Assembly (NCBI GenBank): GCA_016125165.1
Contig: WGMH01000003.1
Coordinates: 434,001 to 498,000 of the forward strand
Direction: 5' to 3'
DNA length: 64,000 nt
Source of the DNA: Alphaproteobacteria bacterium
GTDB lineage: Bacteria; Pseudomonadota; Alphaproteobacteria; Micropepsales; Micropepsaceae
Shown: positions 52,803-64,000 of the stretch, one piece after another
How the letters are laid out: each line of letters opens with the position of its first letter
Position numbering within the stretch: the first letter of the stretch is position 1
Made by a program: the position numbers and the translations under genes
The notes under the pieces: model-generated
What the model was told of the DNA's origin: nothing
The model's input: the letters and a program-made list of their open reading frames with translations, nothing else
Databases searched by the model: none

Positions 52803-53147
52803 ATGCCCGCTGACGGATACCTCGATTACATCGAACTTCCCGGGTCGGACATTCCGGCTACGAAGCGCTTTTATGGCGCGGTGTTTGGCTGGACCTTTAC
52901 CGACTATGGGCCGGACTACGTGGCGTTCGACAGCGCGGGACGATCAGGTGGCTTCAATGCAGCGCGTCGTGTGGTGAAGGAAGGCGGCCCGCTGATCGTG
53001 CTCTTCGCGGCCGATCTCGATTCCATGGAAGAAAAGGTGCGCGCCGCCGGAGCCGAGATCATCTCGCGCGAGGAATTCTCAGGCGGGCGACGCTTTCATT
53101 TCCGCGATCCCAACGGAAATGAAATCGCCGTGTGGACCACCGGTTAG
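52803..53147 (+). CDS. VOC (glyoxalase/bleomycin resistance) family protein
   Basis: A 114-residue vicinal-oxygen-chelate protein: IELPGSDIPATKRFYGAVFGW at the N-terminus and FHFRDPNGNEIAVWTT at the C-terminus, one complete module. It probably dimerises to form the metal site; substrate unknown. AGAGG lies upstream of the ATG at 52803; the frame is also open from 52779. Confidence 0.88.
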   Translation: MPADGYLDYIELPGSDIPATKRFYGAVFGWTFTDYGPDYVAFDSAGRSGGFNAARRVVKEGGPLIVLFAADLDSMEEKVRAAGAEIISREEFSGGRRFHFRDPNGNEIAVWTTG

Positions 53148-53269
53148 ATTTCGCATCCGCAACAATTCCAGATTTCCCCAGCGGTTGGCGCGCCCTGCCC
53201 GCCATGCAACAGTGCGCGCCAAGGAATCCGCATGGCTGCGCTCGGGCGTCGCCATCAAGGGGGAGATTC

Positions 53270-54709
53270 ATGTCGGATACGATTTCCAAGCCTGAAACCG
53301 AAGAAGAAGAACACGAGCTGCACCGCGTGCTGGGCCGATGGCACCTGATCGCGCTGGGCATCGGCGCGATCATCGGCGCCGGTATCTTCGTCATCACCGG
53401 AACCGCGGCGGCCGAACATGCCGGCCCCGCCGTGGTCCTTTCCTTCGTGATCGCCGGTGTCGGCTGTCTGTTCGCAGGACTTTGCTACGCCGAGTTCGCG
53501 GCCATGATCCCGGTTGCAGGCAGCGCCTACACCTATTCCTACGCCACCATGGGCCGCTGGGTTGCCTGGTTCATCGGCTGGAATCTTGTGCTGGAATATC
53601 TGGTCGCCGCCTCGACGGTTGCCGTGGGCTGGTCCAGCTATTTCGTGAACCTGCTGAAGGATTTCGGGATCAACGTGCCCGAGCACCTGTCCAACGCACC
53701 GCTCTCGCTCGATAACAATCACATTGTCATGACGGGCGCGTCGCTGAACTTTCCCGCCATCGCGCTGGTCGTTCTGCTGACATCCATGCTGGTGGTTGGC
53801 GTTCGCGAATCCGCCCGCTTCAACAATCTGATGGTGATCATCAAGGTGATCGTGGTGCTGATGGTCATATTCTTTGGCCTCAGCCATGTATCGTCTGCCA
53901 ACCTGACGCCGTTCATTCCACCGAACGAAGGACATTTCGGCGTATTCGGCTGGTCGGGCGTGCTGGCGGCGGCGGGTCTTATCTTCTTCGCCTATATCGG
54001 CTTCGACGCGGTGTCGGTAGCAGCACAGGAAGCGAAGAATCCGCAGCGCGACATGCCCATCGGCATTCTGGGATCGCTGGCGATCTGCACAGTGCTCTAC
54101 ATCCTCATGGCCATCGTGCTGACCGGTATCGCGCCATACCGCTCGCTGGCGGTGGGCCATCCGGTGTCATTCGCCGTTTCACAGGTGCCGGATCTGGCGT
54201 GGCTTTCCACCATCGTGAATTTCGGCGCAACCGTCGGCCTTGCCTCCGTGGTGTTCGTTTCGCTCTACGGTCAATCGCGCATCTTCTACGCGATGTCGCG
54301 CGACGGCTTCTTGTGGAAGCTCTTCAGCCGGATTCATCCGCGCTACAAGACACCGCATCGCGGCACGATCATCACCGGCGCGTTCGCCGCCGTTCTGGCG
54401 GGGCTGCTGCCGCTCGACATCCTGGGTGAACTGGTCTCGATCGGAACACTGGCGGCATTCACCGTGGTGTGCCTCGGCGTGATGATCCTTCGCGTCCGCG
54501 CGCCGCGCGCGCACCGGCCCTTCCGCACGCCGTTCGTGTGGTTCGTGGCGCCGGCGGGCGTCCTGGTCTGCGGCGCGATGATGTATGGGCTGCCGGCCGA
54601 TACATGGATCCGTCTTGCGATCTGGACCGGGATCGGTTTTGTGATCTTCTTCGTCTATGGCATCTGGCACGCCAAGGCCTCGAAGTGGACGGTCGAAAAC
54701 GCGGACTGA
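53270..54709 (+). CDS. APC superfamily amino acid permease
   Basis: A 479-residue transporter with 12 predicted helices. [24 protein letters not shown] is the conserved first-helix motif, and [23 protein letters not shown] the consensus of the cationic amino acid transporter/YfnA branch. The ATG at 53270 has GGGGAG upstream; earlier in-frame codons from 53132 are not family-like. It ends 10 bases before ubiD. Confidence 0.93.
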
Positions 54710-54719
54710 CGGACGGATT

Positions 54720-56246
54720 ATGACCTATCGCTCGCTGCGCGATTTTCTGGCGCGGCTGGAATCGTGCGGCGAGCTGGTTCGCGTGAGCGAACCGGTCTCG
54801 ACCGTTCTGGAAATGACGGAGATCCAGACCCGCCTTCTGGCCGAAGGCGGGCCTGCCGTTCTGTTCGAGAACGCACGGAAGGCCGACGGCACACGCTCTT
54901 CCATGCCGGTGCTCGCCAATCTGTTCGGTACGGTAAAGCGCGTGGCGATGGGTGTGCGTATGGGCGGCAAGGAACGCACCGACGCCACATCGCTGCGCGA
55001 AGTGGGCGAATTGCTTGCGACCCTCCGCCAACCCGAACCACCACGCAGCATCGGCGAAGCGATGGAGCTTCTGCCGCTCGCCAAGGCGGCGATGAGCATG
55101 CGACCGAAAACGTCGGGCTCTCCGCCCTGCCAGCAAGTGGTGCTGCGCGGAAACGATATCGATCTGAACGCGCTGCCGATCCAGACATGCTGGCCGGGCG
55201 AACCGGCGCCGCTCATCACCTGGCCGCTGGTGGTGACCAAAGGCCCCGGCGATGCGCGCGAAGACAATTCCAACCTCGGCATCTATCGCATGCAGGTGCT
55301 GAACAGGAGCCAGACGCTGATGCGCTGGCTGAAACATCGCGGCGGCGCGCAGCATCATGCGCGCTGGGCAAAAGAGAACACGAAACCGCTGCCCGCGGCA
55401 GCGGTGATCGGCGCCGATCCCGGCACCATTCTGGCAGCGGTGACGCCGGTGCCTGACACGCTTTCGGAATATCAGTTCGCCGGGTTGCTGCGCGGACAGC
55501 GCGTGGAGCTTGCCGATTGCGTATCGCAGCCGCTGAAAGTGCCCGCCGAATCGGAGATTGTGATCGAAGGCGAGGTTTCGCTCGGCGATTATCGCGACGA
55601 AGGCCCCTACGGCGATCACACCGGTTATTACAATTCGGTCGAGCAGTTTCCCGTGTTCACGGTGACGGCGATAACCATGCGCCGCGATCCGATCTATCTC
55701 ACGACCTTCACGGGAAGACCGCCGGACGAACCATCCGTACTGGGCGAGGCGCTCAACGAGGTGTTCATTCCGCTCTTCCAGCAGCAGTTTCCGGAGATCG
55801 TGGATTTCTGGCTGCCACCGGAGGGATGCTCATACCGCATCGCCGTGGTGAGCATGAAGAAGGCTTACCCCGGCCACGCCAAGCGCGTGATGATGGGTGT
55901 GTGGTCGTATCTTCGCCAGTTCATGTACACGAAATGGGTGATCGTGGTGGATGACGATGTGAATGCGCGCGACTGGAAGGATGTGATGTGGGCGATCTCC
56001 ACGCGCATGGATCCGGCGCGCGACATCACCGTGATTGAAGGCACACCCATCGACTATCTCGATTTTGCGTCACCGGAATCTGGGCTGGGTTCCAAGATCG
56101 GGCTGGATGCCACCAACAAATGGCCACCCGAGACGAAGCGCGAATGGGGCCGGCTGTTGCACATGGACAACGACGTTGTGCAGACCGTTACCGAGAAATG
56201 GCCGCGTCTCGGATTGCCCGGTTCCGGCAAGCCGATCTGGAAATAG
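54720..56246 (+). CDS. ubiD: UbiD family decarboxylase (3-polyprenyl-4-hydroxybenzoate carboxy-lyase)
   Basis: A 508-residue prenyl-FMN-dependent decarboxylase. Typical motifs are [14 protein letters not shown] at the start, [10 protein letters not shown] (prFMN/metal binding) and [12 protein letters not shown]. With ubiA it makes ubiquinone; ubiX (the prFMN prenyltransferase) is not in the window. The ATG at 54720 is used since the frame upstream to 54657 overlaps the permease only as a shadow. Confidence 0.95.
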
Positions 56247-56309
56247 CCAGTACACTTGCAATACACGCAAGAGGTGTGAGTTAATCGCGCCCATATTCGA
56301 GGGGCATCG

Positions 56310-57275
56310 ATGAAAATCGTTCAAATGATATTTCCGGCGACGCTGCTCGCCGCAGCTTCATCCTTTTTCTCGACAGATGCGATCGCGGGCGACTGTCAGC
56401 TGAAGATACTGGCATCCTTGCCCGTTTCATATTCCAGCAATGGCGACGCCATGATTCCCGTTAACGTCGAAGGGCGCGATATCGTCATGAAATTTTCGCC
56501 GAACAGCCTTGTTTCCCTGATCAATCAGGATGTGGCGATTGCGCTTGGGCTTCATCGCACCGAGATCAACCAAAATGTCGTCATCAATTACAATGGCGGA
56601 CAGGTAAAGGTGCGAACCACGGCAAAGCTCAAGATCGGCAGTATATCTGGTGATAGCGATTTTGGCGTGCCATTCAGCCCCGTGAGCTCCGATCCAAAAA
56701 TGGCCGGCATACTCGCATTCGATATCCTGAAGAAGATGGACATTGAACTGGATATTGCTCACGGCAAGATCAACTTCTTCACGCAGGATCACTGTCCAGG
56801 CGCAGTCGTCTACTGGACCCGCTCGGCACCTGTCGCAGCCATCCCTATGGAAATGCGCGGTTCGCATAATTTCCTCATACCGATGACTCTTGACGGCACA
56901 GACATCGAGGTACAGCTTGAACCGTCGATCGACCGAGCTTTCCTGAGTACCGGCGTTGCCGAACGCGAGTATGGCCAGCCGCGCACCGACGATGAGGATT
57001 CGCTTTCTCAGCCATATACCTTCAAATCGCTTGGTGTCGAAGGCATCGCTATCGGCAATCCAAAATTCTATCCTTATTGGGACCCGGACGGCGGGGCGTG
57101 TTCCGGCAAAGGCCAGGAAACATCTCCCGAATTGCGCAATGAAACCAATCGGCGCCTCATTCGGTGTTTTGGGAGTCTGGATGCCTATTTGGGCAGGTCT
57201 CAACTGAAGCTGCTGCGCATCTTCCTCGCGTTCAAGGAGAAGATGATGTACGTGACGGCTGCCAATGCCGAATAG
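56310..57275 (+). CDS. Secreted two-lobed aspartyl-protease-like protein, catalytic motifs lost
   Basis: A 321-residue protein with a signal peptide (to about residue 26). It is homologous over its length to the next two genes: the N-terminal Cys29 after the signal, HCPGAVVYW (Cys162) in the middle and the C-terminal AFKEKMMYVTAANAE. In its paralogues each half has a Asp-Thr-Gly active-site motif. Here the first reads KFSPNS (61-66) and the second QLEPSI (202-207), so both catalytic aspartates are gone. It is probably an inactive member that keeps the fold, perhaps for binding or regulation (inference). The stop overlaps the next ATG by 11 bases. Confidence 0.72.
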   Translation: MKIVQMIFPATLLAAASSFFSTDAIAGDCQLKILASLPVSYSSNGDAMIPVNVEGRDIVMKFSPNSLVSLINQDVAIALGLHRTEINQNVVINYNGGQVKVRTTAKLKIGSISGDSDFGVPFSPVSSDPKMAGILAFDILKKMDIELDIAHGKINFFTQDHCPGAVVYWTRSAPVAAIPMEMRGSHNFLIPMTLDGTDIEVQLEPSIDRAFLSTGVAEREYGQPRTDDEDSLSQPYTFKSLGVEGIAIGNPKFYPYWDPDGGACSGKGQETSPELRNETNRRLIRCFGSLDAYLGRSQLKLLRIFLAFKEKMMYVTAANAE

Positions 57276-58233
57276 ACCACTTGCTGTTGCAGCATTGCTT
57301 GGCGTTCTTGCCGGTCCTGCTCTTGCCGACGACTGTTCACTTCAGCAGATGGCGGCGCTCGACATGCGCGAATTGCAAGACGGACGCATCACTGTTCCCG
57401 TGAAGGTGAATGGCGCGGAGTATCAGTTTCTTGTCGACACGGGCGGCGTCTACAGCAGCCTTAGTTCCGACATCGTCAAGCAACTTGATTTGAAAAAGCA
57501 CGAGATCGCGGGCCAGCTTTACGGCATTCGCGGCAATCGCAAGAAATACGGTGTGAGCCTCGACTCCTTCATGATCGGGCCGAATGAGGCCAAGCGATTC
57601 AAGGTCGTGGTGGAAGATGCGGATGGGCTGCCGCCCGGCGTTTCCGGCATCCTCGCGCCCGACATGCTGAGCGTATTCGACGCGGATTTCGATTTCGGCA
57701 AGAAGAAGCTGAACCTGTTCTCGCAGCGCCATTGCCCCGGCAAGGTGGTCTATTGGACCAATGCCTATGTGGAAGTACCATTTGACTACATCGGGCGCGG
57801 CGGCCACATCAATTTCAGCATGGCGTTGGACGGAAAAGTACTTCCCATAACCTTCGACACCGGCTCGGCGATCACGCTCATCAGTGAAAGCCGCGCCCGC
57901 TCGCAGTTTGGCGTGGCGACCGATTCACCCGGTGTTGAGCGCATGCCTGACGCGAAAGACGACTGGGTGGTGAAATTCAGCAAGCGCTTTGACACGCTGA
58001 CGCTGGACGGGGTGACGGTGAAGAACCCGATGATCTACCTGTTCGACGACGCCGCAATTGCGCGCGGCTTCAAACGCGAGAATTCCTACAAGAGTGACAC
58101 AGACCCGATCTATGGCGACTCGATTTCGGCATCGCCGCTCATTCTCGGCATGAACGTGATCCAGAAGCTTCATCTCTACGTGGCATTTGGCGAGAAGAAG
58201 ATTTATGCGACGGCTGCAGGCGACACAAAATAG
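57265..58233 (+). CDS. Secreted two-lobed retropepsin/pepsin-like aspartyl protease
   Basis: A 322-residue protein with a signal peptide (ending Ala-Leu-Ala near residue 21) and two aspartyl-protease motifs: FLVDTGGVYS (Asp58) and ITFDTGSAIT (Asp198). Each lies in a retropepsin-like half (about 40-150 and 175-320), so the single chain would form the bilobal pair that retropepsins make as dimers. Cys24 and Cys157 (HCPGKVVYW) are shared with its paralogues and could form a disulfide. It belongs to the bacterial Asp_protease_2/retropepsin-like group, mostly uncharacterised. Second gene of a three-gene tandem, overlapping both neighbours. Confidence 0.78.
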   Translation: MPNRPLAVAALLGVLAGPALADDCSLQQMAALDMRELQDGRITVPVKVNGAEYQFLVDTGGVYSSLSSDIVKQLDLKKHEIAGQLYGIRGNRKKYGVSLDSFMIGPNEAKRFKVVVEDADGLPPGVSGILAPDMLSVFDADFDFGKKKLNLFSQRHCPGKVVYWTNAYVEVPFDYIGRGGHINFSMALDGKVLPITFDTGSAITLISESRARSQFGVATDSPGVERMPDAKDDWVVKFSKRFDTLTLDGVTVKNPMIYLFDDAAIARGFKRENSYKSDTDPIYGDSISASPLILGMNVIQKLHLYVAFGEKKIYATAAGDTK

Positions 58234-59380
58234 TGCGCGCAGATTGTGGGCTTTCCTGCTGCTAGTGTGCGTGACGCTTGCGCCAAACCACGTTCAGTCA
58301 CGCGACGAGAAACTTGTAATTGTGCCGTACCCAAACTTGCCTGATTACGATCTCCCCCGAGAATACTACCCGGAATTCACGATCGATAACGAACCGTTTC
58401 GCACACTGGCCGAGGAAGATGCGATCACAAATGGCCCCTATAGGATAGACTTGGGTGGCGGCGCAGACGATACGCAGAATGGCGCAGTGAGTACCACCAA
58501 GAAGCCTGATACCTGCAATCTCGAACGCGTGGATGTTTATCCGCTTTATGACGACGAGGCGGGGCATGTAATGGTTCCAGTAATGATGGACAAACGCCGC
58601 AACCTGGTGGTGGACACTGGCGGCGCGATCAGCACGCTCATACCTAAGACCGTGGCGGAGATGCGCCTTGAACCAAAGCAATCCAGCTGGAATTGGCAAT
58701 CAGACCTTACCGGTCGCGTAAATAATACGCTTGTCAGGGTACCTAACCTGACGTTCGGAAAAGTCGCCATGCACGATGCAACATTCTTCGTTGAAGCAGC
58801 CGACCCGGACGCCATCACATTGCCATCCAAGATGGAAGGCGTTCTAGGACCGAGCCACTTGATGACGTTTGATGTTGAACTCGATTTCGGGAACGGCACG
58901 ATGTCTCTGTATTCGCCGTTTCATTGTCCGGGCAAAGTCGTGCATTGGGCGAAGGCGTGGACCGAAATTCCGTTCAAAATTAAGAATGGCCACATACAAT
59001 TCTATATCCGCCTTGATGGAAAATCCCTATCAGCGGTCCTTGATACCGGGGCGCCCTATTCGATTTTGAACATGTCCGCCGCAAAAAGGTGGTTCGACAT
59101 CACCACCAGAACGCCCGGCGTGGAGCCGATAGGGCACCTGAACGGCGTCCAAAAGGACACTCACATCACGTACCACAAGCGATTTCAATCGCTCTCGCTG
59201 GATGGGCTTGAAATCAAGAATCCTTATCTGGTTCTGATCCCCGATTTGATGCAGGGTGCAAAGGGCGAGCACATCAAGACGGCGGATCTCATACTGGGTC
59301 TTCGTGAGATTTCTGCACTGCACATCTATATCTCCTATCGTGAGGAGAAGATTTACCTGACTGCCGCGAACGCGCATTAG
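58205..59380 (+). CDS. Secreted two-lobed aspartyl-protease-like protein with N-terminal extension
   Basis: A 391-residue protein with a basic, hydrophobic signal region (about 13-32), an extra segment of about 70 residues that its paralogues lack (rich in Pro, Asp and Glu, starting near DEKLVIVPYPNLPD), then the shared two-lobe core: LVVDTGGAIS (Asp137), FHCPGKVVHW (Cys241) and VLDTGAPYSI (Asp280). Both catalytic motifs are intact. The ATG at 58205 is preferred; a TTG at 58187 is open. It overlaps the previous gene by 29 bases. Its C-terminus (SYREEKIYLTAANAH) closely resembles the first paralogue. Confidence 0.76.
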   Translation: MRRLQATQNSARRLWAFLLLVCVTLAPNHVQSRDEKLVIVPYPNLPDYDLPREYYPEFTIDNEPFRTLAEEDAITNGPYRIDLGGGADDTQNGAVSTTKKPDTCNLERVDVYPLYDDEAGHVMVPVMMDKRRNLVVDTGGAISTLIPKTVAEMRLEPKQSSWNWQSDLTGRVNNTLVRVPNLTFGKVAMHDATFFVEAADPDAITLPSKMEGVLGPSHLMTFDVELDFGNGTMSLYSPFHCPGKVVHWAKAWTEIPFKIKNGHIQFYIRLDGKSLSAVLDTGAPYSILNMSAAKRWFDITTRTPGVEPIGHLNGVQKDTHITYHKRFQSLSLDGLEIKNPYLVLIPDLMQGAKGEHIKTADLILGLREISALHIYISYREEKIYLTAANAH

Positions 59381-59490
59381 CCGAGCGCGAGCGCTCGGCG
59401 GGCAGCCGAGCCACCTCCTCCCCACCCGCTTGACCGGCCACAAAAACGGCCTACACATGGCGGCGGTTCAGGCCAAAGGGGCGCTTCGCC

Positions 59491-59910
59491 ATGTTCTTCG
59501 AGAGCACGTTTCAATCCTGCGCGTTCTACACGGGCACCAATGCCCTTATCATGCTCATTCTTTCGGTGCTTGTGGTGCGCGCCCGCGTGACCACGCAGAC
59601 CGCCATCGGGGACGGGAACAATCCGCTCATGGCCGGGCCGTTGCGCGCGCACGGGAACAATACGGAATATGTGCCGGTCGCCCTCATGCTGATGTGGGCT
59701 CTGCTGCCATTCGACGGCTCTATCTGGCTGGTGCACGGCGTGGGCCTGCCTCTGACCGTTGGGCGCATCCTCCACGCGATGGGGCTTTCGGGGAACACTG
59801 GTCCTTCAACGCTGCGGCTGGCCGGCATGATGCTGACCTGGATTGCCTACATCGTCGGCATCGTCGGCCTGTTCTACGTAACCTTCATTCCGCCGATGAT
59901 GGCAAGCTAA
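59491..59910 (+). CDS. MAPEG family membrane protein
   Basis: A 139-residue protein with four membrane helices and the MAPEG pattern: RAHGNNTEYVPVALMLM near the middle (the conserved glutamate/asparagine region) and GRILHAMG. Family members are glutathione-dependent enzymes of membrane-bound lipid or leukotriene-type substrates; the bacterial substrate is unknown. It is followed within three bases by pmbA. Confidence 0.9.
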   Translation: MFFESTFQSCAFYTGTNALIMLILSVLVVRARVTTQTAIGDGNNPLMAGPLRAHGNNTEYVPVALMLMWALLPFDGSIWLVHGVGLPLTVGRILHAMGLSGNTGPSTLRLAGMMLTWIAYIVGIVGLFYVTFIPPMMAS

Positions 59911-59913
59911 CGC

Positions 59914-61263
59914 GTGGCTTCCAAACAGAAGACGACCGCCGAAGACATCCTCTCAGGGTTGATCCGTGGGGCGCGCGCCGCAGGCGCGGATGCCGCCGAC
60001 GCCCTGATCGTGGAGAGCGTGTCATCGGCGGTGTCTTACCGGCTCGGCAATCTTGAGGATGTGGAGCGCGCCGAATCCAGCGATCTGGGTTTGCGCGTAT
60101 TCGTTGGCGAGCGCGTTGCCTTCGTGTCATCCACCGATCTGCGCCCCGCGGCCCTGAAGGAGCTGCCGGAACGCGCGGTGGCCATGGCCAAGCTGGCGCC
60201 GGAAGACCGGTTCGCCTGTCTCGCACCCGCCGATCTTCTGGCGCGCAAAATTCCCGATCTCGACATTGAGGACAAAGCCGAGCCTTCCACAGAGACGCTG
60301 ATCGCAGCAGCCAAGGCCGTGGAAGGCGCCGCAATGGCCGTGGCGGGCATCACCAATTCCGAAGGCGGCAGCGCGAATTTCGGGCGCAACGCCATTGCGC
60401 TTGCCACGAGCGAGGGCTTCTTCGGGCGCTATGCAGCCACAAGCCATTCCATCGGCGTGGCGGTGCTGGGTGGCGAAGGCATGGAGATGGAGCGCGACTA
60501 CGACTATGCGAGCGCGCGCCACGCGGCCGATCTGGATCGCCCGGACGACATCGGCCGGCGCGCGGGCGAGCGCACCATCGCCCGTCTGCATCCGCGCAAG
60601 GTGAAATCCCAGGCCGTTCCCGTGATCTTCGATCCGCGCGTCAGCACGGGACTTGTCGGTCACTTCGTCAGCGCAATTTCGGGCACCGCGATCGCGCGTG
60701 GCGTGAGCTTTCTGAAGGATCGGATGGGCAAGTCTGTTTTCGCAGCCGGCATCCGCATCATCGACGATCCGCACCGCTTGCGTGGTCTGCGCTCCAAACC
60801 GTTTGACGGTGAGGGCGTGCGCAACCAAAAAATGACGTTCGTGGAAGATGGCGTGCTGCAAAGCTGGCTGCTGGATTGCGGCACGGCCAAGCAGCTCGGC
60901 CTTACCTCTACCGGCCATGCGGCACGCGGTACGGGCGGACCGCCTTCGCCCTCGCCCACCAACCTCTATATGGAGGCCGGTGCACAATCGCCCGAGGCAC
61001 TCATGGCCGACATCAAAAGCGGCTTCTACGTCACCGAAATGATGGGCATGGGTGTGAACAATGTGACCGGCGATTACAGCCGCGGCGCCTCCGGATTCTG
61101 GATTGAGAACGGCAAGATTGCCTATCCCGTGGCGGGCGTGACCATCGCCGGCAATCTGAAAGACATGTTCCAGCACATGACGCCCGCAAGCGATCTGGAA
61201 TTCCGCTATGGCACCAACGCACCAACACTTCGCGTTGAAGGGATGACCCTTGCCGGCGCCTGA
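59914..61263 (+). CDS. pmbA: TldE/PmbA family protein
   Basis: A 449-residue paralogue of TldD without the HExxxH site, as expected for the TldE subunit of the TldD-TldE peptidase (see tldD at 35.2 kb). Recognisable are AVSYRLGNLEDVERAES near the start, VIFDPRVSTGLVGHF and RGASGFWIENGKIAYPV near the end. It starts with GTG at 59914. Its 3' end overlaps the next gene by 14 bases. Confidence 0.94.
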   Translation: MASKQKTTAEDILSGLIRGARAAGADAADALIVESVSSAVSYRLGNLEDVERAESSDLGLRVFVGERVAFVSSTDLRPAALKELPERAVAMAKLAPEDRFACLAPADLLARKIPDLDIEDKAEPSTETLIAAAKAVEGAAMAVAGITNSEGGSANFGRNAIALATSEGFFGRYAATSHSIGVAVLGGEGMEMERDYDYASARHAADLDRPDDIGRRAGERTIARLHPRKVKSQAVPVIFDPRVSTGLVGHFVSAISGTAIARGVSFLKDRMGKSVFAAGIRIIDDPHRLRGLRSKPFDGEGVRNQKMTFVEDGVLQSWLLDCGTAKQLGLTSTGHAARGTGGPPSPSPTNLYMEAGAQSPEALMADIKSGFYVTEMMGMGVNNVTGDYSRGASGFWIENGKIAYPVAGVTIAGNLKDMFQHMTPASDLEFRYGTNAPTLRVEGMTLAGA

Positions 61264-62065
61264 TGCCGACGATCTGAATCTGATCCGCGACGCGGTAAAC
61301 GAGGCGGGCAACATCGCGCGGCATTATTTCGGCGGCGACTACAAACGCTGGGACAAGGGCAAGAACCAGCCCGTTACCGAAGCCGACATCGCCATCGATA
61401 CATTTCTGCGCGACACGCTGACCGCGGCGCGACCAGACTATGGCTGGCTCTCGGAAGAAACGCGCGACGATCCCGCACGGCTCCAGCAGGAAACCGTCTT
61501 CATCGTCGATCCCATCGACGGCACAACGGCATTCCTCAAAGGCAAGCCGCATTTCTCAATCTCGGTCGCCGTGGTGCATGGCGGACGGCCGCGTGTGGGC
61601 GTGGTTTCCAATCCGATCACCCGCGAGTGCTTCGCCGCCCGTCTTGGCCAAGGTGCAACAAAGAACGAATTGCCGATCCATGTGAGCAGCTGCACGGCGC
61701 TGGAGGGGTGCCGCATCCTTGGCCCGAAAGACATGTTCAGCCATCCAGCCTGGAACACGCCGCCAAACCGGCCCTGGCCGCCGATGGAGATTGCAGCGCG
61801 CAGTTCAATCGCCTATCGCCTCGCGCTGGTGGCAGACGGCACGTTTGACGCCGCGCTGGTGCTCAGTTCCAAGCACGACTGGGACATGGCTGCAGGCGAC
61901 CTGATCGCGACCGAAGCTGGCGGTCTGGTAACCTCACATGATGGCCGCATCCCGCTATACAATGGTCCAACGACTCTGCAGCACTCCATGATCTGCGCGG
62001 GGCCGGAGCTTCATGCGCAGATCCTTAACCGGGTGCAGCATATCAAGCTTCCACGAGGGCAATGA
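61250..62065 (+). CDS. Inositol monophosphatase/CysQ-like phosphatase
   Basis: A 271-residue protein with the metal-dependent phosphatase signatures VDPIDGTTAFL (Asp-Pro-Ile-Asp) and WDMAAGDLIATEAGG (the family C-terminal motif), plus VTEADIAID in the first third. It could dephosphorylate PAP (CysQ) or inositol phosphates. The start is a TTG at 61250 with GAAGGG upstream, overlapping pmbA. It is coupled to the DUF4170 gene. Confidence 0.86.
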   Translation: MPAPDADDLNLIRDAVNEAGNIARHYFGGDYKRWDKGKNQPVTEADIAIDTFLRDTLTAARPDYGWLSEETRDDPARLQQETVFIVDPIDGTTAFLKGKPHFSISVAVVHGGRPRVGVVSNPITRECFAARLGQGATKNELPIHVSSCTALEGCRILGPKDMFSHPAWNTPPNRPWPPMEIAARSSIAYRLALVADGTFDAALVLSSKHDWDMAAGDLIATEAGGLVTSHDGRIPLYNGPTTLQHSMICAGPELHAQILNRVQHIKLPRGQ

Positions 62066-62067
62066 CC

Positions 62068-62310
62068 ATGGCCGAACACGAATCCAAACAGCTTCTGCAT
62101 CTGGTCTTCGGCGGCGAACTGAACTCGACCGAGACGGTGGAGTTCAAGGATCTGAAGGCGCTGGACATCGTGGGTATCTACCCAAACTACAAGGCCGCCT
62201 TCGACGCCTGGAAATCCAAGGCGCAGGCCACCGTGGACAACGCACAGATGCGCTATTTCGTGGTCCACATGCACCGGCTGATGGAGCCCCACCCCGAAGA
62301 CGGGGATTGA
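62068..62310 (+). CDS. DUF4170 domain-containing protein
   Basis: An 80-residue protein starting MAEHESKQLLHLVFGGEL, the DUF4170 pattern, with FVVHMHRLMEP near the end. Function unknown. A GAGG is at proper distance before the ATG at 62068; an ATG at 62062 overlaps the phosphatase stop. The neighbourhood pmbA-phosphatase-DUF4170-MsbA is typical of alphaproteobacteria. Confidence 0.85.
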   Translation: MAEHESKQLLHLVFGGELNSTETVEFKDLKALDIVGIYPNYKAAFDAWKSKAQATVDNAQMRYFVVHMHRLMEPHPEDGD

Positions 62311-62348
62311 GGCTTCGCCCCGCCCTGCCCGCGTGCTAGAGGCTGGCC

Positions 62349-64000
62349 ATGAAAGCACCGACCGCCACCAGGAACAGGACCGGAGACTGGTCCATCGTCC
62401 GCCGCCTGTTCCGCGACTACATCAGGGGCCAATGGCCAATATTGGCCGTAGCGGTCCTCTGCATGGTCGTGACGTCGGCCCTGACCGGGGCGCTCGCGTG
62501 GGTGCTCGACCCCCTGATCCATTTCGTCTTCATCGAGAAGAACGCCCGGATGCTTCTGATCCTCCCGCCCTGTGTGGCAGGGCTGATCGGGGTTCGCGCT
62601 TTCACGCAGTTCGGACAGGACGCGATCCTCAACAGCATGTCGGAACGCATCATCGCGGCAACGCAGCGCGACATGTTCAAGAGCCAGATCCGCCTCGATA
62701 TCGGCGCCCTGAACAGCGTGCACTCCGGCGAGCTGATCGCGAAGTTCCTCTATGACACCACGCTGCTGCGCACGGCGCTGACGCGCGGCGTGGCAGGGTT
62801 CGGCAAAGAGCTTGTGACGCTGATCGCGCTGGCTGGCGTCATGATCTATCAGGATTGGCAATTGGCGGCGATCTCGGTGCTGCTGCTGCCGCCGGTTGCC
62901 TGGGTAACGGGCAATCTGGGTCGCTCGCTGCGCAAATTCTCCACGCGCGGCATGGAGGAGACCGGCGTTCTCTCCAAATCCCTCTCCGAGGCATTGAGCG
63001 GGCGGCGCATCATCAAGGCCTATAATCTTGAAGATCACGCTGCAAAACTCGCCGATGGCCGCATCTCCGAACGCTTGCGCTATCTGCTGCGTGCAGTGCG
63101 GGCACGCGCGGCGGCCGTGCCATCCACCGATTTCATTGGCGGCGTGGCAGCCGCGCTGACATTCGCGTTCGCAGGCTATCAAAGCCTGCACGGGCAGCTG
63201 GAGATCAACAAATTCACATCGTTCATTGCGGCGATGCTGCTGGCGCAGCAGCCGGTGCGTACCCTCAGCCAGCTCTGGACGATCTCGTCGGAAGGGCTTT
63301 CCGCTGCCAATCGCATTTTCGCGGTGATCGACGCCAAGCCAGCTATTGAAGACAAACCCGGCGCCAGGCCCCTGACGTCAGCGGGCGCTCATGTTCACGG
63401 CGCGGTGACGTTTGAAAACGTATCATTCGCCTATGCCTCCGGTGCGGACTCGCCGGCGATCAACGATGTGACCATCGAGATACCAGCGGGAAAGCAGGTG
63501 GCACTGGTGGGACCATCGGGCGCCGGCAAGACAACGATCTTCAATCTTCTGTTGCGGTTTTACGAGCAGAAGAGCGGCACGATCACCATTGATGGGACCG
63601 ATACGCGCGATGTAACGCTGCAGTCGCTGCGCGACAGTATCGCGCTCGTAACCCAGGATCCCTTCCTGTTCGACGAAACCGTTGCGGAAAACATCGCGCT
63701 GGGCCGCCCCGGCGCGAGCCGCGAAGATATCGAAGTGGCGGCGCGCGCTGCGGCGGCGCATGATTTCATAACCGCGCTGCCGCTCGGCTACGATTCGGGC
63801 GTGGGTGAAGCGGGATCGAAACTCTCCGGCGGACAACGCCAGCGCATCGCTATTGCACGCGCCATGCTGCGCAACGCGCCAATCCTGTTGCTCGACGAAG
63901 CGACTTCGGCACTCGACACAGAGAGCGAGCGGCAGGTGCAGGAAGCGCTTGCCCGGCTGATGCGAGGGCGCACGACGATCGTGATCGCGCATCGCCTGAG
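62349..64000 (+). CDS. msbA: MsbA-like ABC exporter (lipid A/lipid flippase), 3' truncated
   Basis: About 550 residues are visible; the gene runs past the window end. The N-terminal half has about six membrane helices (ABC type I exporter), and the nucleotide-binding domain carries Walker A GPSGAGKTT (388-396), the Q-loop region TQDPFLF, signature LSGGQ (492-496) and Walker B LLLDE (Asp516, Glu517), with the H-loop near residue 549. Its place behind pmbA-phosphatase-DUF4170 matches the alphaproteobacterial lipopolysaccharide-export neighbourhood, where kdtA and lpxK usually follow (they would lie beyond the window). MsbA is the best match, but other lipid exporters share this form. Confidence 0.82.
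   Translation, partial: MKAPTATRNRTGDWSIVRRLFRDYIRGQWPILAVAVLCMVVTSALTGALAWVLDPLIHFVFIEKNARMLLILPPCVAGLIGVRAFTQFGQDAILNSMSERIIAATQRDMFKSQIRLDIGALNSVHSGELIAKFLYDTTLLRTALTRGVAGFGKELVTLIALAGVMIYQDWQLAAISVLLLPPVAWVTGNLGRSLRKFSTRGMEETGVLSKSLSEALSGRRIIKAYNLEDHAAKLADGRISERLRYLLRAVRARAAAVPSTDFIGGVAAALTFAFAGYQSLHGQLEINKFTSFIAAMLLAQQPVRTLSQLWTISSEGLSAANRIFAVIDAKPAIEDKPGARPLTSAGAHVHGAVTFENVSFAYASGADSPAINDVTIEIPAGKQVALVGPSGAGKTTIFNLLLRFYEQKSGTITIDGTDTRDVTLQSLRDSIALVTQDPFLFDETVAENIALGRPGASREDIEVAARAAAAHDFITALPLGYDSGVGEAGSKLSGGQRQRIAIARAMLRNAPILLLDEATSALDTESERQVQEALARLMRGRTTIVIAHRL

Follow-up and report, generated by a model that had tools for sequence, protein, structure and literature searches.

Three overlapping genes, here called P1, P2 and P3, occupy positions 56310-59380, on one strand, of a 64,000-nucleotide stretch (the window) of contig WGMH01000003.1 from an alphaproteobacterium of the family Micropepsaceae (GenBank assembly GCA_016125165.1). 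They encode members of one family of aspartic peptidase homologues, predicted to fold as single-chain, pepsin-like proteins. P2 and P3 feature one Asp-Thr-Gly (DTG) motif in each half, P1 in neither. P1 belongs to a separate branch of the family, marked by a cysteine pair of its own, a feature that goes beyond an earlier inspection of the window made from its letters (the sequence-only reading). The explanation regarded as likely is that a probably exported family has been expanded by duplication in Rhizomicrobium/Micropepsaceae-like Alphaproteobacteria, with one recurrent site between the genes ubiD and pmbA. P2 and P3, which keep both DTG loops, would most likely be extracytoplasmic peptidases that cut by a dyad of the Asp58/Asp198 type. 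P1, in a branch in which every member lacks an intact triad and has a second cysteine pair in the C-terminal lobe, would be a maintained pseudo-pepsin, most likely binding a protein or peptide by its remaining cleft or surface without cutting it, as an inhibitor, decoy or receptor.

Motifs, lobes and predicted folds

P1 is related to P2 (E 5e-25, 28% identity). Chance similarity of the three genes is ruled out by this match and by the homology of the lobes, and the three overlapping homologous genes of the sequence-only reading are confirmed by the open reading frames and the same comparisons. The DTG motifs assigned to P2 (Asp58, Asp198) and P3 (Asp137, Asp280) were found as described, as was their loss in P1, where Ser63-Pro-Asn and Glu204-Pro-Ser stand in their place. 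Neither a sequencing error nor a frameshift accounts for the loss, because relatives at the same site in other genomes also lack the motifs. The replacements vary among the nearest relatives (SPN/EPS, EFG/ATD, SMD/IFS), which makes a new catalytic residue in P1 unlikely.

PF13650 (Asp_protease_2, clan AA; gathering cut-off 24.3 bits) matches two stretches in P2 (E 7.4e-18, 65.5 bits) and two in P3 (E 8.7e-14, 52.4 bits). The retroviral protease model PF00077 scores 21.0 bits in P3, barely over its cut-off of 20.7, and 15.7 in P2, and gives no match in P1; the NCBIfam model TIGR02281 remains under its cut-off of 57.95 in both P2 (39.8) and P3 (27). The A1 pepsin model of Pfam gave no match at E<=1 for P2 or P3, in a scan whose filters drop most weak matches. 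For P1, the Pfam and NCBIfam models gave no hit at E<=1, PF13650 included.

Profiles of the N-terminal and C-terminal lobes align end to end, DTG on DTG, with a probability of 99.1, and of 98.5 when the catalytic columns are masked. Structure models were made for P1 and P2 and compared by Foldseek, followed by a second look at its matches, from which the Z values derive. The P2 model has a predicted local distance difference test score (pLDDT) of 90.0 and a predicted template modelling score (pTM) of 0.86. Its best fold match is 9IY9, a putative endopeptidase of Bacteroides fragilis (Z 20.8, root-mean-square deviation 3.1, 249 residues, 14% identity). Penicillopepsin has Z 18.7 (deviation 3.6, 249 residues), and fungal, protozoan and animal pepsins score Z 17.5-18.8 among the best 50 matches. 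Models, fold matches and lobe homology agree with the two-lobed, pepsin-like chain proposed earlier, and the prediction of P2 as a single chain of two homologous lobes, with one D[TS]G each, is well supported. The family departs from A2 retropepsins, in which one-lobe chains dimerise, in that two homologous lobes share one chain.

By homology, P2 and P3 would be active aspartic endopeptidases, and both are probably exported. Putative signal peptides have a hydrophobic core, and AxA precedes a cysteine in P1 and P2 (judged by eye, no predictor). In P3 the likely signal peptide is followed by about 70 extra residues, a candidate propeptide, before the N-terminal cysteine conserved in the family is reached (58205-58520); a long extension is found also in L003.

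The P1 model has pLDDT 85.3 and pTM 0.82, and matches aspergillopepsin (Z 18.5) and 9IY9 (Z 18.4). Its top 50 fold matches include the xylanase inhibitor 1t6g (Z 17.6) and basic 7S globulin 3aup (Z 17.5), both inactive relatives, with which many active pepsins score level, and cockroach Bla g 2, which we take to be inactive. P1 retains 18 of the 20 scaffold positions conserved in intact members and none of the 6 catalytic positions. The 17 members that have lost both aspartates retain 307/340 scaffold and 27/102 catalytic positions. Differences at the three codon positions between P1 and its relative in G003 (0.45/0.37/0.62) resemble those of the intact pair P2-L010 (0.43/0.35/0.64), and the P1 protein sequence is therefore still constrained. 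With catalytic residues lost and the predicted fold conserved, P1 has the features of a pseudoprotease.

The P1 branch and its cysteine pair

The family was surveyed in 146 members gathered from relatives and named loci. D[TS]G is present in both lobes in 96, both triads are changed in 29, only the first in 12 and only the second in 1; the remaining 8 are without one or both motif sites, and 138 are readable at both. Of the 139 rows that have a residue at the position of the N-terminal cysteine, 138 keep the cysteine; for the central one the count is 140/143. Related loci reside mostly in metagenome-assembled genomes of Alphaproteobacteria/Proteobacteria, including Rhizomicrobium (R. electricum too) and Micropepsaceae; three are titled Candidatus Marinimicrobia. 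Across the class, 12/385 genomes, in four families, match at E<=1e-25 (at most 5 candidates scored per genome). Within the genus, 60/69 match the profile described below at the same threshold, mostly by other family members.

The second cysteine pair of the C-terminal lobe (C264/C286 in P1) is present in all 8 members of the P1 clade in this set. It is absent from the other 130 whose two motif sites can both be read, among them the 96 intact ones. A profile of the 8 brought in 30 loci, and 7 proteins that are not among its own rows proved to have the pair too. At least 15 P1-type proteins thus occur in 14 of 69 same-genus genomes, a lower bound. All 15 feature the pair, and in no lobe of any of them is a DTG intact. 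The pair is absent from the other 23/30 rows of the profile search, some of which are partial or repeated, and among its 44 already known hits it is found only in the P1 clade. The extra cysteines stand just before the C-lobe Leu-Gly element, and a loop closed by a disulfide close to the former cleft of P1 is therefore a fair guess.

In a tree made without the catalytic and cysteine-loop columns, the 15 P1-type proteins group once (support 88/81) and the trait changes once. The tree has 59 rows: the 15, P2, P3, 12 chosen neighbours of P2, 8 further members that lost both aspartates and a random 22 of the rest.

Other members depart from the intact state as well. On the same tree a separate motif-poor branch (L053, L080, L098, L115) is formed by five proteins with 100/100 support; they lack the extra cysteine pair, feature the motifs STD/ESG, GTA/NTD, ATA/NTG, STA/STD and ELG/NGG, and two are in tandem in L053. 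L106 and L107, in a genome of another family (G049), are arrays of three and four members, and all those of L106 are altered (ATA/DSS, STS/DSG, HTS/DSG).

Close members of the family in the source genome (3.04 Mb) are five, P1 to P3 and two on another contig. On another contig of the same genome (L084:4502-6765) a family gene with two DTG motifs is immediately preceded by a gene for a tetratricopeptide repeat (TPR) protein that has a likely signal peptide; homologues of this TPR gene were found in 9/51 stretches compared. More distant matches reside in long frames, 617 and 421 codons, at C8:636006-638045 of the source genome (G000). Comparable ones occur in G022, G003 and G020; these may be two-lobed proteins that carry an additional domain.

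A more far-reaching account is offered tentatively, as one that could prove right and is held with less than even confidence. One event would have given rise to a secreted pseudo-pepsin branch that gave up its intact triads in both lobes and gained a disulfide-closed loop in the C-terminal lobe. At least 14 species would have kept it for use as inhibitor, decoy or receptor, paralleling the pepsin-fold xylanase inhibitors of plants; at least one further motif-poor branch, that of L053, L080, L098 and L115, would have arisen separately.

The ubiD-pmbA site and alternative explanations

The features of the locus are listed in Table 1. ubiD and pmbA are on one contig in 19/23 same-genus genomes searched. 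Between them, one to three family genes, some broken, are found in 13 (the entry for G011 taken from coordinates), a remnant in 1, and none in 5. The P1-type gene is alone in G003, G022 and G028. In G022 and G028 the order is ubiD, P1-type gene, MAPEG, pmbA; in G003 a pyridoxal-dependent decarboxylase gene is inserted before the P1-type gene. In G420 the P1-type gene adjoins pmbA, and ubiD was not found in 1.5 kb on the other side. Altogether 5/15 P1-type genes, that of the window included, are at or beside the site, and the other 10 are elsewhere, within the stretches read. Single members of other motif-changed lineages occupy the site in G030, G005 and G009. The site is old; its contents turn over. 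A functional tie to ubiD or pmbA was rejected as the main explanation, as many members lie elsewhere, for example beside a TPR gene or near metH.

Table 1. Coordinates of the three family genes, their motif positions and the bordering genes in the window
Feature	Position	Strand	Description
P1	56310..57275	+	321 aa; predicted pseudo-pepsin, both DTG motifs lost, extra Cys pair
P1 Ser63-Pro-Asn	56496..56504	+	at the family's first Asp-Thr-Gly position
P1 Glu204-Pro-Ser	56919..56927	+	at the family's second Asp-Thr-Gly position
P1 Cys264	57099..57101	+	first Cys of branch-specific pair
P1 Cys286	57165..57167	+	second Cys of branch-specific pair
P2	57265..58233	+	322 aa; predicted pepsin-like aspartic peptidase, probable signal peptide
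P2 Asp58-Thr-Gly	57436..57444	+	N-lobe catalytic motif
P2 Asp198-Thr-Gly	57856..57864	+	C-lobe catalytic motif
P3	58205..59380 from ATG (391 aa) or 58187-59380 from TTG (397 aa)	+	putative pepsin-like aspartic peptidase
P3 Asp137-Thr-Gly (ATG-start numbering)	58613..58621	+	
P3 Asp280-Thr-Gly (ATG-start numbering)	59042..59050	+	
UbiD-family decarboxylase	54657..56246	+	upstream border of recurrent site
MAPEG-family protein	59491..59910	+	downstream border where present
PmbA/TldD-family metallopeptidase	59914..61263	+	downstream border of recurrent site

The order of genes at 53132-64000 (amino acid permease, ubiD, pepsin-like array, MAPEG, pmbA, inositol monophosphatase family, ABC transporter) is conserved. 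The ABC transporter downstream of pmbA is presumably MsbA-like, and the genes found there in relatives look, in our estimate, like waaA and lpxK; the array may stand upstream of a lipid A/lipopolysaccharide cluster.

The sequence-only reading had proposed that active and inactive members work together as a set. In that case P1 would be an obligate regulatory or structural partner of P2 and P3, and the three genes one functional unit. Overlaps of 11 bp between P1 and P2, and of 29 or 47 bp, depending on the P3 start, between P2 and P3, suggest co-transcription in the window, and arrays mixing intact and changed members exist elsewhere, as in L127, L128, L139 and L152; the changed members of these arrays, however, do not have the extra cysteine pair. 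A family gene was found near 1/15 P1-type genes only, that of the window, in stretches of 3-7 kb with flanks mostly of about 0.5 to 1.5 kb, a farther family gene being possible. G022 (97% complete) has the P1-type gene at the same site as its only close family member, with no P2 or P3. Nor are members that lost both aspartates enriched in tandem arrays (6/49 vs 11/70 solitary, Fisher p 0.79, counting the 119/135 members with enough flank). Loss of any aspartate (14/49 vs 15/70, p 0.39) and change of any triad (18/49 vs 21/70, p 0.55) tilt slightly towards arrays, not significantly. P1-type genes do not need active neighbours. An obligate partnership is judged improbable; some interaction of P1 with P2 or P3 in this organism is possible, and is no longer the natural explanation.

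Equally improbable is relaxed selection on P1, with the gene a duplicate in decay. The frames of the 15 P1-type proteins, in 14 genomes, are uninterrupted, the cysteine pair is common to all of them, and the scaffold positions and codon-position pattern of P1 given above are those of a constrained protein. Decay at the site is nonetheless evident in the broken copies of G014 and G008 and in the remnant of G004, and G006, G012, G015, G020 and G021 have no family gene there.

This decay is one of several points that weigh against P1 as a maintained, non-cleaving pseudo-pepsin. Residues 261-290 of the P1 model, which hold the extra cysteines, have pLDDT values of 49-59, and the disulfide itself is inferred. 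The model is not independent of intact relatives, because the alignment behind it is made mostly of them. One aspartate is kept in an altered triad by 6/15 P1-type proteins, in the first triad in L233, L236, L238 and L240, in the second in L090 and L234, and by none in both; residual activity in these six is conceivable. The 7 new members are not a fully independent test, because the profile includes the cysteine columns. L235 (the same as L122), an intact member of the active type without the pair, scores 263 bits, above five of the seven, so that score alone does not separate the branch. Support of 88/81 for the grouping is moderate, and some branches are long.

Slightly less probable again is that the whole family mainly binds and that proteolysis, even in members with DTG, is a side activity or has been lost. 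In favour of this, a quick tree of 135/146 members (11 fragments or partly aligned rows left out) has at least 6 changes of the double-Asp state, both triads are changed in 29/138 readable members, and conservation is higher for the N-terminal and central cysteines than for the triads. Against it, the 96/138 members with D[TS]G in both lobes are hard to explain without selection for catalysis. The intact/changed state has at least 21 changes on the quick tree.

Known relatives and meaning of the family

The best sequence match of the family profile in the PDB is again 9IY9 (E 1.2e-12). Like the family it is bacterial, made of one chain, and features DTG in both aligned halves, the second of which aligns weakly. 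It differs in having about 155 residues before the matched part and in the low identity to P2 noted in the fold alignment. Among the open-licence articles searched, none was found that names 9IY9. Because 9IY9 has been solved, the single-chain bacterial fold with two DTG motifs is not new, and this weakens the sequence-only view that such proteins were uncharacterised. Neither this family nor a bacterial pseudo-pepsin was the subject of any article found in the open-licence literature with the terms used, among the matches listed.

A1 pepsins, including the bacterial shewasins A and D, resemble P2 in being single chains of two lobes with one D[TS]G per lobe. Bacterial A1 members are postulated to be bi-lobal from modelling, and shewasin D is described as active and cytoplasmic (PMC4814920). 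Unlike A1 pepsins, P2 and P3 match PF13650 and PF13975 and are predicted to be exported, and P2 leaves almost no room for a propeptide between the signal peptide and the conserved cysteine. Two retropepsin-like proteases from bacteria, RloA (Pseudomonas) and APRc (Rickettsia), share the DTG motif with the family. RloA has a signal peptide and forms a dimer of one-lobe chains (PMC12239564), while in the family of P1 to P3 two lobes are fused. The family profile also matches structures of APRc (ApRick), at E 9e-6.

Inactive pepsin homologues (xylanase inhibitor, basic 7S globulin, EDGP, Bla g 2) keep the pepsin fold, as P1 is predicted to do. They are eukaryotic members of the pepsin family, whereas P1 is bacterial, comes from a family of retropepsin-like proteins and lacks both triads. 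In plant xylanase inhibitor, basic 7S globulin and EDGP the catalytic Asp of the C-lobe is replaced and activity lost (PMC11313796).

Plants and animals have inactive pepsin homologues that serve other roles, and the bacterial branch, with its clear structural mark, would have taken the same path independently, from retropepsin-like ancestors. As P1-type genes stand alone at one site in several species, the role of a pepsin fold without catalytic residues may be tested with one small protein. The family as a whole supplies many two-lobed bacterial aspartic peptidases for studying the transition from one-lobe retropepsin to pepsin.

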